A stretch of DNA of 64,000 nt from Herbaspirillum sp. ST 5-3 (GTDB lineage: Bacteria; Pseudomonadota; Gammaproteobacteria; Burkholderiales; Burkholderiaceae_D): NCBI RefSeq assembly GCF_004804275.1, contig NZ_STGI01000001.1, positions 186,001 to 250,000 of the forward strand. The letters run 5' to 3'. Under the pieces are notes generated by a model, which worked only from the letters and a program-made list of their open reading frames with translations, searched no databases and had not been told where the DNA came from. Positions 11,747 through 16,048 of this stretch are shown one piece after another. Position numbers and translations under genes: made by a program. Each line of letters opens with the position of its first letter. The stretch's first letter is position 1.

Positions 11747-12427
11747 ATGATCGAATTCCGTCACGTATCCAAGCAGTACACGCGCAATACCGCCGCGCTG
11801 ACCGACATTACGCTTTCAATCAACAAGGGCGAGCTGGTCTTTCTGTCCGGCCCCTCCGGCGCCGGGAAGTCGACCCTGCTGAAAATGATCGCGGTTATCG
11901 AGCGACCGAGTTCCGGCACCGTGTCGGTCAATGGCCAGGACGTCGGCCGCCTCAACGCCTCCGGCCTGCCCTACCTGCGCCGCAACCTCGGCCTGATCTT
12001 CCAGCAACAATGCTTGCTGAACGACCGCAGCGTCCTTTCCAACGTGATGCTGCCGCTGCTCGTTGCAGGCAGCACGAAAGCAGATGCCGAAAAACGTGCG
12101 CGCGCCGCGCTCGACAAAGTCGGTTTGCTCGACAAGGGGGCGTTCGACCCGCTCGCGCTTTCCGGCGGCGAGCAGCAGCGGGTTGCAATCGCACGCGCCA
12201 TCGTCAACCGTCCGCAGATCATCCTTGCCGACGAGCCGACCGCCAATCTCGACCGCGCAAGCGCCAATAAGGTGATGGACGCACTCAAGGCATTTCATGA
12301 CGTCGGCGTCACCTGCCTGATTTCGACGCACGACGAAGCCATTCTCGGCGACGCGCAGCGCATCGTCTATCTGCAGCAAGGGCGTCTTGTCGATGCGGAA
12401 CTCGCTATGAACGAAGGGGCCGCATGA
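11747..12427 (+). CDS. ftsE: Cell division ATP-binding protein FtsE
   Basis: A 226-residue ABC ATPase with Walker A GPSGAGKST, Q-loop region GLIFQQQCLL, signature LSGGEQQRVAIARAIV, Walker B IILADEPTANLD and switch His in STHDE. It starts one base after ftsY and overlaps ftsX by ATGA. With FtsX it forms a divisome complex that activates periplasmic peptidoglycan amidases rather than transporting a solute. Confidence 0.95.
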   Translation: MIEFRHVSKQYTRNTAALTDITLSINKGELVFLSGPSGAGKSTLLKMIAVIERPSSGTVSVNGQDVGRLNASGLPYLRRNLGLIFQQQCLLNDRSVLSNVMLPLLVAGSTKADAEKRARAALDKVGLLDKGAFDPLALSGGEQQRVAIARAIVNRPQIILADEPTANLDRASANKVMDALKAFHDVGVTCLISTHDEAILGDAQRIVYLQQGRLVDAELAMNEGAA

Positions 12428-13350
12428 TGAACTGGCTGAGATTGCATGCTTTTGCCTTCGCCGATGCGTTCAAGCACCTCGTCCGGACGCCCGGCAGCTT
12501 CGCGCTGAACGTGCTGGTGGTCAGCATCGCGCTGGCGCTTCCATTCGCTGGGTTCACCGTACTCGAAAACGTTCGCCCGGTATCGGAGCAACTCGCCGTC
12601 GAGCCGGAAATCAGCGTCTTCATGGCGATGGAGACCCCACGTGAGCGAGCGACCGCACTCGGGCCGCAGATCCGCAATATCGTGCTGGAGTCCGGAAACA
12701 AGGCCAGACTCGAATTCATCCCGCGTGAAAAGGCGTTATCCTTGCTCAAGGACAAGAGCGGCTTATCCGACGCAATCACGGCCTTGGGCGAGAATCCGCT
12801 CCCGGATGGCTATGTCCTGAAACTCGCCGGGGTTCAAAGCGCCCGCGATGCCGCTCGCGTCGAAGGCCTGGCGGTGCAATTGAAAGCGTTGCCCGGGGTC
12901 GAATACGTCCAGATCGATTCGGCGTGGGTGAAGCGTCTCGCCGCCCTGATGCAAGTCTTTCGCCTCGCGTTGCTGTTTCTTGCATCGACCCTTGGCGTAG
13001 TTGTGGTGGCCGTCGTGTTTAATACCATTCGCCTGCAAGTCATGACGCAGCGCGAGGAAATCGCCGTGTGCCGGTTGTTCGGCGCCACCGACGGCTTTAT
13101 CTGCCGCCCGTTTTACTATACCGGCGCGCTGCTCGGGCTGGTGGCTGGCGGGGGCGCGCTCGGACTGGTTGCGCTGGCACTCCCGCCTTTTAACAATGCC
13201 TTGGCCGAATTTGCCCGCCTCTACGCGTCCGAATTCCGGCTGTCGCCTTTAAGCCCGGTGACGTCCATTGCCCTGTTGACAGCCAGCGCAGGTCTCGGCT
13301 TGGTCGGAGCCTTGCTTTCAGTCAAAAGACACTTGGCCCGCATGAATTGA
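12424..13350 (+). CDS. ftsX: Cell division permease-like protein FtsX
   Basis: A 308-residue membrane protein: one hydrophobic segment near residues 25-47, a periplasmic domain of ~120 residues, and three more hydrophobic segments in the C-terminal half (near LALLFLASTLGVVVVAVVFN, ALLGLVAGGGALGLVALAL and SIALLTASAGLGLVGALL). This is the FtsX topology. It shares the ATGA overlap with ftsE. The partner amidase activator is not in the window. A 220-bp regulatory gap separates it from rpoH. Confidence 0.93.
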   Translation: MMNWLRLHAFAFADAFKHLVRTPGSFALNVLVVSIALALPFAGFTVLENVRPVSEQLAVEPEISVFMAMETPRERATALGPQIRNIVLESGNKARLEFIPREKALSLLKDKSGLSDAITALGENPLPDGYVLKLAGVQSARDAARVEGLAVQLKALPGVEYVQIDSAWVKRLAALMQVFRLALLFLASTLGVVVVAVVFNTIRLQVMTQREEIAVCRLFGATDGFICRPFYYTGALLGLVAGGGALGLVALALPPFNNALAEFARLYASEFRLSPLSPVTSIALLTASAGLGLVGALLSVKRHLARMN

Positions 13351-13430
13351 CGCCGCCGAATAAGTTTCGAACACCGCTTTGAGCCTTCGCAACTTTTTGC
13401 GCTTCCATTACTCTAAGCTAGGAATTACCA

Positions 13431-13450
13431 ATTAATTTCCATAAATTAAT
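13431..13450. repeat. Perfect AT-rich palindrome upstream of rpoH
   Basis: ATTAATTT (13431-13438), CCAT, AAATTAAT (13443-13450): 8-bp perfect arms in an unusually AT-rich patch of this GC-rich window, 120 bases before rpoH. It might be a second regulator site, a DNA-bending element or a weak ftsX terminator, though it has no T tract and no GC. Confidence 0.35.
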
Positions 13451-13484
13451 AGATACTTCCTATAAGGCCAGTTGAAATAGCTGA

Positions 13485-13511
13485 TTAGCACTCAAGGCAA
13501 TAGAGTGCTAA
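13485..13511. promoter_or_regulatory. CIRCE element (HrcA operator) upstream of rpoH
   Basis: TTAGCACTC (13485-13493), nine-base spacer, GAGTGCTAA (13503-13511). This matches the CIRCE consensus TTAGCACTC-N9-GAGTGCTAA at every arm position. CIRCE is bound by the heat-shock repressor HrcA. It lies 60-86 bases before the rpoH start, in the expected promoter/leader zone, so HrcA probably controls this sigma-32 gene. No hrcA gene is in the window. Confidence 0.93.
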
Positions 13512-13570
13512 TATATTTCTGTAAGCGGATTTGATTCCAATCGGTCTCAGCTAGGAGGCAAGGAGAAAGA

Positions 13571-14461
<891 letters not shown>

Positions 14462-14479
14462 GCCGGTGATTGCCGATAA

Positions 14480-14507
14480 AAAAGGCGCTCAATGTTGAGC
14501 GCCTTTT
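14480..14507. terminator. Bidirectional terminator between rpoH and the SCO-like gene
   Basis: AAAAGGCGCTCAA (14480-14492), TG, TTGAGCGCCTTTT (14495-14507): a 13-bp perfect stem with A residues before and T residues after. It sits between the convergent stops of rpoH and the SCO gene and can terminate both. Confidence 0.93.
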
Positions 14508-14530
14508 TCTTTTTCCGGCAACGAAACAAC

Positions 14531-15160
14531 TCAGGACAGCAGCAGTTTCAAATCATGCACGATAGGCTCCGGCCCTTGTCCATGCCGGATGAACAGACGG
14601 ATCCGCCCCTGGGGGTCGAATACATAGCTTCCGGCCGTATGGTCCATCGTGTAACTACCCGGCTCCTTGCCCGGCACCTTTTGATAAAACACCCGGAATT
14701 CCTTCGCGACCTTTTCGGTCGATGCCTTGTCCCCGACCAAGCCGAGGAAGCGCGGATCGAAAGCGGGAACATATTTCGCCAGTAATTCCGGCGTATCACG
14801 TTCCGGATCGACAGTAATGAACAAGACCTGCACCTTGTCTGCAAGCGGCCCGAGTTGCTGCATGACGTTCGCCATTTCCGACATGGTTGTCGGGCAGACG
14901 TCCGGGCATTGCGTGTAGCCGAAGAATACGACCACTGCCTTGCCCTTGAAATCCGCAAGAGTACGCATCTTCCCCGTATAGTCCGGCAGCGCAAAATCCT
15001 TTGCGTAGTCGAGCCCGGTTACATCAGTGTTTTTGAACACCGTTTTCGCTGGCGACAGAATCATCGGCGTACCCTCACCCGGCCTGTCACAAGCGGCGAG
15101 CGACAATACAGCAAGGACAAAGGCGACGGATGAAACGCGGACTGCAGATAGAAAACGCAT
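14531..15160 (-). CDS. SCO1/SenC family copper chaperone lipoprotein
   Basis: A 209-residue protein with a lipoprotein signal (lipobox LAAC, Cys about residue 24). The thioredoxin fold carries the copper ligands CPDVC (in YTQCPDVCPTTMSE) and the conserved His in DHTAGSYVFDP. SCO proteins deliver copper to, and keep reduced, the CuA site of cytochrome oxidase subunit II. It is the last gene of the long minus-strand oxidase locus and starts 3 bases after cyoE, so it is co-transcribed with it. Confidence 0.95.
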   Translation of the reverse strand: MRFLSAVRVSSVAFVLAVLSLAACDRPGEGTPMILSPAKTVFKNTDVTGLDYAKDFALPDYTGKMRTLADFKGKAVVVFFGYTQCPDVCPTTMSEMANVMQQLGPLADKVQVLFITVDPERDTPELLAKYVPAFDPRFLGLVGDKASTEKVAKEFRVFYQKVPGKEPGSYTMDHTAGSYVFDPQGRIRLFIRHGQGPEPIVHDLKLLLS

Positions 15161-15163
15161 GAT

Positions 15164-16048
15164 TCAGAATAGGAGGTAGTGATCGACAAGCAGTGCGGCA
15201 AACAGCAGCGACAGATAGACGATCGAGTAAGCAAAAGTCTTGCGCGCGACGAGATCCGTGTAATGCCGGTAGATCTGCCATGCATGCCAGAGAAAAACCG
15301 CACCGAGCAGCGCGGCGCTCGCCAGATAGATCAGACCGCTCATATGCACGGCATACGGCAGCATTGTGGTGGCGACCAGTGCGATAGTGTAGAGCCAGAT
15401 ATGGAATTGGGTGAACTGCAAGCCGTGGGTCACCGGCAGCATCGGCAGTCCCGATTTAGCGTAGTCATCGCGACGATAGAGCGCAAGTGCCCAGAAATGC
15501 GGAGGCGTCCAGACGAAAATGATCAAAACCAGGATCCATGCCTGCATCGGAACGTCATTTGCAATGGCTGCCCAGCCCAGAGCGGGCGGCATCGCGCCGG
15601 ACAGGCCGCCGATCACGATATTCTGTGGCGTCGCCGGCTTGAGGAGCATCGTATAGATCACCGCATAACCGACAAAGGTGGCAAAGGTCAGCCACATGGT
15701 GAGCGGATTGACGAAGTTGAACAGCACCCACATGCCGATACCGCCGATCACGCCGGAAAATACCAAGGTCTGCGCGGCGCTGATTTCGCCGCGCGCGATC
15801 GGGCGGCGCGCAGTGCGCGCCATGCGGGAATCGATTTCTCGCTCGACCAGGCAATTGACTGCAAATGCCGCACCGGCAAGCAGCCAGATACCGATAGTGC
15901 CCGCGACGACGATTCGCCAGTCGGGAAGATCGGGTGTTGCCAGGAACATGCCAATCACTGCGCAGAATACGGCGAGCTGCGTCACGCGCGGCTTGGTCAG
16001 CGCCCAGTACTGCGCGATGCGGTTTGGTTGGACAGTCAGAGTGTTCAC
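15164..16048 (-). CDS. cyoE: Protoheme IX farnesyltransferase (heme O synthase)
   Basis: A 294-residue UbiA-superfamily membrane protein with many hydrophobic segments. The prenyl-diphosphate/magnesium motif reads [19 protein letters not shown], and a second loop has [18 protein letters not shown]. It adds a farnesyl group to heme b, making heme O for conversion by CtaA. The start is GTG with GAGGAG upstream. It lies between ctaA (9 bases away) and the SCO gene. Confidence 0.96.

Follow-up and report, generated by a model that had tools for sequence, protein, structure and literature searches.

The repressor HrcA and its operator, CIRCE, control chaperone operons in Bacillus subtilis-type systems. 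According to the GroE titration model, GroEL becomes occupied on heat and HrcA consequently loses its activity. CIRCE has also been printed before rpoH, the gene for sigma-32, in Geobacter sulfurreducens (PMC545781, Table 8), where a perfect element directly before the gene was predicted by comparison; a study of beta-, gamma- and epsilon-proteobacteria by Permina and Gelfand (2003) is cited there. Promoters of the sigma-E type likewise lie before rpoH, as in E. coli (rpoHP3) and Bordetella bronchiseptica, and the promoter of B. bronchiseptica fam (rpoH) was transcribed by SigE in vitro (PMC3490749).

The locus described here lies in a stretch of 64,000 nucleotides (the window) and shares features with each of these systems while differing from each. 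As in G. sulfurreducens, a perfect CIRCE stands directly before rpoH; unlike the situation proposed here, neither promoter hexamers within CIRCE nor a sigma-E-type promoter that overlaps the element or lies close by are described in the available part of PMC545781. The operator consensus and the repressor are the same as in B. subtilis-type chaperone control, and groES has a CIRCE here too, but the target at this locus is the sigma-32 gene, and the perfect CIRCEs of the 5.8-Mb assembly (42 contigs) number two, one before rpoH and one before groES. A candidate sigma-E-type promoter, one mismatch from the pattern, precedes rpoH here, as such promoters do in E. coli and B. bronchiseptica, and is placed 95 bp upstream of CIRCE. 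The words HrcA and CIRCE have 0 occurrences in the main text of PMC3490749. A limited search of the open-licence PMC literature found no report of an overlap between CIRCE and a sigma-E promoter before rpoH, and likewise none of a promoter built into the element or of a displaced sigma-E site. CIRCE before rpoH is already known; what this search did not find in print is the promoter/operator architecture proposed for this gene.

The Operator and Its Genomic Setting

The sequence-only reading had claimed a perfect CIRCE element in front of rpoH, and this description holds on both counts: 18/18 arm bases match the CIRCE consensus, and the downstream open reading frame is a genuine rpoH by the TIGR02392 model (Table 1). 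The full element, TTAGCACTCAAGGCAATAGAGTGCTAA, divides into arms and loop as TTAGCACTC-AAGGCAATA-GAGTGCTAA, ends 59 bases before the rpoH ATG and thus occupies the promoter/leader region of this heat-shock gene. It is the single match with three or fewer mismatches in the 64-kb window, where 100 dinucleotide-preserving shuffles gave a mean of 0.01, and a rough estimate from base composition puts the chance occurrence of a perfect CIRCE at about 5e-7 per 64 kb.

The gene itself is well separated from its paralogs, the second-best match of RpoH within its own genome scoring 117.2 bits and the self-match 643.6. Its closest named relatives among the matches listed, at 83–86% identity, come from a Burkholderiales MAG, Rugamonas aquatica, a Herbaspirillum frisingense MAG and a Janthinobacterium MAG, which suggests a betaproteobacterium of Oxalobacteraceae-like affinity. 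The gene order is ftsY-ftsE-ftsX-rpoH, with FtsE scoring 254.7 bits, under its cut-off of 264.85, and FtsY 341.9, over its cut-off of 260.7. Elsewhere in the genome there is a single hrcA (PF01628), whose product reaches 315.8 bits with TIGR00331 (cut-off 197.2), and RpoE is encoded as well (TIGR02939, 322.7 bits, cut-off 236.15), next to genes for proteins of the RseA/RseB type (RseA_N and MucB_RseB). The contig that bears hrcA has no CIRCE at three or fewer mismatches. A third CIRCE-like match in the genome (L003, three mismatches) was set aside as a chance match, no chaperone gene being recognised among the nearby open reading frames.

TABLE 1. Positions of the features at and around the rpoH operator, numbered from the first nucleotide of the window.
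Feature	Position	Strand	Basis or description
ftsX, gene upstream of rpoH	12424..13350	+	TIGR00439, 253.7 bits, slightly below cut-off of 255
Putative sigma-E-type promoter	13390..13416	+	CAACTT-N16-TCTAA; one mismatch (C for G in the -35); 95 bp upstream of CIRCE
ATAG-N7-CTAT dyad	13449..13463	.	Between the sigma-E-type block and CIRCE
Perfect CIRCE, candidate HrcA operator	13485..13511	.	TTAGCACTC-N9-GAGTGCTAA
Putative -35, TTAGCA	13485..13490	+	Inside the left CIRCE arm; suggested by left-arm drift to TTGGCA
Putative -10, TAATAT	13509..13514	+	End of the right arm plus TAT; suggested by TANNAT conservation
rpoH (sigma-32), 296 aa	13571..14461	+	TIGR02392, 414.8 bits, cut-off 323.1

Conservation of CIRCE and Its Association With HrcA

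The regions before rpoH were surveyed in 60 genomes of the order, CIRCE being sought within 400 bp of the gene on the strand set by alignment to RpoH. RpoH was found at an E-value of 1e-60 or better in 57 of these genomes (58 genes) and HrcA in 53 of the 60. In the HrcA-positive genomes, CIRCE precedes 51/51 rpoH genes at four or fewer mismatches and 49 at three or fewer, where the cut at four was chosen after an earlier count at three and the counts are not corrected for the tree; G009 and G026, both HrcA-positive, have an rpoH CIRCE with four mismatches. Where HrcA was not found, one of seven rpoH genes has a CIRCE at the same cut, and this exception, G052, is an assembly that is 84% complete and in 520 contigs. 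Shuffled upstream regions gave 2 matches in 1160 at four or fewer mismatches. The picture within the window's own family is tighter still, with RpoH in 58 of 60 genomes and CIRCE at two or fewer mismatches before 58 of the 58. An rpoH CIRCE is shared and conserved among related bacteria and is no oddity. The sequence-only reading had guessed at a known lineage trait, which proves right in substance given the 51 order genes and the Geobacter element, and the survey of related rpoH upstream regions that it had proposed finds the element conserved and tracking HrcA across the order.

CIRCE-like sites at three or fewer mismatches number two in 36 of the 60 order-sample genomes, three in 12, one in 4 and none in 8, counts that include chance matches; a reversed-pattern control gave 0 matches in most of these genomes and 18 in G019. 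One genome (G047) has two rpoH genes (L122 and L134), each with one CIRCE.

In a mixed set, 80 named RpoH relatives among the matches listed were considered, and 50 of the 80 have CIRCE at four or fewer mismatches. HrcA was searched in 47 of these 80 listed genomes, mainly of the gamma type. Among the matches listed, an rpoH CIRCE at three or fewer mismatches occurs in 14 of the 18 genomes with HrcA, two of the remaining four having GACTG-type arms, and in 3 of the 29 without HrcA, all three of them MAGs. Within the order, CIRCE and HrcA go together almost without exception, and outside it their association is looser. In the Lysobacterales-type genomes L070, L048 and L050, an operator variant, TTAGCAGTC-N9-GACTGCTAA, lies before rpoH, perfect in L070, with one mismatch in L048 and with three in L050; its arms look as if the specificity of HrcA had changed. 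Pseudoalteromonas luteoviolacea (L077) has a perfect rpoH CIRCE together with an HrcA match that is weak (46.6 bits) and over the Pfam cut-off.

These surveys bear on two alternatives to a working HrcA operator. The genome G034, in which the search found no HrcA, has an rpoH CIRCE (L113) that looks decayed, with five mismatches, and GGAACTT and TAAAAT are kept. The element in the window could, in the same way, be a relic, out of use by HrcA in this species, but the site here is perfect, HrcA scores far over its cut-off and every rpoH site of the family lies within two mismatches, which makes a relic very improbable. It would be more surprising still if some other regulator with a CIRCE-like operator controlled rpoH: nothing was found in favour of such a protein, the genome holds a single PF01628 protein, the identical perfect operator stands at groES and the rpoH site follows HrcA across the order.

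A Putative Promoter Within the Operator

When rpoH sites are aligned on CIRCE, AT is common at positions 28–29, immediately outside the element. Together with the end of the arm, this gives the hexamer TANNAT, which is found at 44 of 52 rpoH sites in the order, at 44 of 50 sites in named genomes (among the matches listed) and at 55 of 58 sites in the family, the order and family sets overlapping by three genomes. At groE sites of the order it occurs once in 33 (among the matches listed; Fisher p 9e-15 against 44/52). This comparison set began as 20 hand-picked groE sites (TANNAT in 0/20) and was enlarged to 33 among the matches listed, with L152 excluded because its groES start was not found.

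The arms of the element also differ between the two genes. At rpoH, the third base of the left arm changes from A to G, giving TTGGCA, in 22/52 order sites, 11/50 named sites (among the matches listed) and 14/58 family sites, and the mirrored change in the right arm occurs 0 times in all three sets. Among the groE matches listed, the left-arm change is seen in 0/33 and the right-arm change (TGCCAA) in 6/33. Examples of the latter are L256, L257, L253 and L247, where the drift is the reverse of that at rpoH. TTGGCA is closer than TTAGCA to TTGACA, the -35 consensus of sigma-70. Drift of this kind is one-sided, and a repressor alone would favour neither side, so that a promoter of the form TTRGCA/TANNAT at rpoH would explain the asymmetry.

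In the window, the two proposed hexamers are separated by a spacer of 18 bp, and in each of them 4 of the 6 positions agree with the sigma-70 consensus. A sigma-70 consensus scan around the site returned no promoter and no terminator, the hexamers lying below the scan threshold. The conservation pattern fits a promoter inside CIRCE whose hexamers are not near-consensus and which may nevertheless act like one; CIRCE seems to double as the core promoter of rpoH.

The groE sites present a different arrangement. A box that departs from CTTGAAA by no more than one mismatch is found at -45 to -20 in 29 of the 33 groE sites among the matches listed, which fits the sigma-32 promoter expected ahead of the groE operator, and GAACTT is found at 0 of the 33 listed. 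In this genome, the sequence CTTGAAA/CCCATATA lies directly before the groE CIRCE.

A simpler role for the element would be that of a downstream roadblock or leader element, in which transcription starts upstream, bound HrcA or an mRNA hairpin lowers rpoH output and TAATAT is no -10 at all. The predicted sigma-E start about 60 bp before CIRCE agrees with this arrangement, as do the 10-bp hairpin predicted for transcribed CIRCE and the failure of the scan to find a consensus sigma-70 promoter. A roadblock or hairpin, however, does not require that TANNAT be nearly absent at groE or that the arms drift on one side at rpoH and on the other at groE, and the fold of the rpoH leader is, apart from the CIRCE hairpin, unexceptional (z -1.46, with 18 of 200 shuffles equally stable); we regard this explanation as unlikely. 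No Rfam matches at gathering scores were found in positions 12300–15300. We infer HrcA binding, promoter use and regulation at rpoH, and judge, from the features of the sequence described above, that the element is probably a working HrcA operator covering the main rpoH promoter, with its two arms doubling as promoter hexamers.

Sigma-E-Type Promoters Near rpoH

In a wider set of rpoH regions, GGAACTTTT, which we take to be the -35 of sigma-E-type promoters, is found upstream of CIRCE. GAACTT (at most one mismatch) lies at -25 to -6 from CIRCE in 67 of 102 distinct contexts, and across these contexts it is followed by TCNNA at a spacing of N16 in 40 and of N17 in 16. The TC of TCNNA can derive from the CIRCE arm, and the null was accordingly built by swapping loops among the sequences; for N16 its 5000 trials averaged 28.5 and never exceeded 37, against 40 observed. 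The -10 shifts along with the -35, the N16 spacing being found in 32 of 36 cases with the -35 at -15, in 3 of 4 at -13 and in 5 of 5 at -11; where the -35 starts at -16, N16 occurs in 0 of 19, which are mostly N17. A sigma-E-type site (GAACTT-N15-17-TCNNA) overlaps CIRCE in 30 of the 42 order-sample families with CIRCE, and shuffled upstream DNA gives such an overlap in 1.2% per site.

Sites of this type are also found where HrcA is not. Among the matches listed, a sigma-E-type site lies no more than 300 bp from rpoH in 19 of 25 named genomes in which HrcA was not found, against 6.9% of shuffles; four of the 29 such genomes were excluded from this check, one (L028) for a contig end and three (L054, L060 and L086) because CIRCE is present. 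In the order, the site is found at one of six rpoH genes that are negative for both HrcA and CIRCE.

In the window, GAACTT adjoining CIRCE was not found, and the candidate sigma-E-type promoter is the upstream one of Table 1. Corresponding sites lie at -88 to -106 from CIRCE in 17 of 58 family members, all with N16. Four more members have one between -29 and -31, and another has one at -131, which brings the total to 22/58 against 6.2% of shuffles. In an alignment of 20 family members, chosen so that 15 carry the sigma-E-type block, this block, CIRCE and an ATAG-CTAT dyad stand out; the dyad, as ATAG-N7/8-CTAT, lies between -45 and -15 relative to CIRCE in 27 of the 58 members. The upstream block is absent, by the same criterion, in the two sampled congeners (G128 and G162), and upstream of the genome's own rpoE a GAACTT-N16-TCAAC is seen by eye that fails the TCNNA pattern. 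The congeners without the block and the rpoE upstream sequence that fails the pattern slightly lowered our confidence in the preferred explanation, that of an HrcA operator over the main rpoH promoter with a separate sigma-E-type promoter upstream.

Proposed Regulation of rpoH

If the operator and the promoter overlap as proposed, HrcA on CIRCE and RNA polymerase on the housekeeping-type promoter built from its arms would exclude each other. On heat, HrcA would become inactive, and rpoH and groESL would be derepressed together. Newly made sigma-32 would then act at the CTTGAAA/CCCATATA promoter before the groE CIRCE, which would complete a feed-forward loop with GroE as its feedback. Envelope stress would reach rpoH by a separate path, through the upstream sigma-E-type promoter, which lies outside the operator.

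A broader and more tentative proposal is that the rpoH promoter of beta- and many gamma-proteobacteria is an old three-input unit, composed of an HrcA operator, a housekeeping promoter formed from its arms and a sigma-E promoter with its -10 in the operator, such that HrcA would gate both the cytoplasmic and the envelope-stress input. Two descendant states could have come from it. Some lineages without HrcA would have kept the sigma-E promoter only, the state of E. coli P3, and the lineage of the window would have kept HrcA, with the sigma-E promoter lying some 80 bp farther upstream and free of direct occlusion. This proposal is possible, and we hold it for less probable than its converse because the sigma-E-type site is scarce at the order's HrcA- and CIRCE-negative rpoH genes and because the congeners lack the upstream block.

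If these readings are true, HrcA in this order would sit above sigma-32, with a role that extends beyond repression of the chaperonin. The wiring of the HrcA, sigma-32 and sigma-E responses could be read from the precise way in which promoter and operator overlap. This would provide a testable account of how the path from sigma-E to sigma-32 may be rewired, either when HrcA is lost or when the sigma-E promoter is displaced from the operator.
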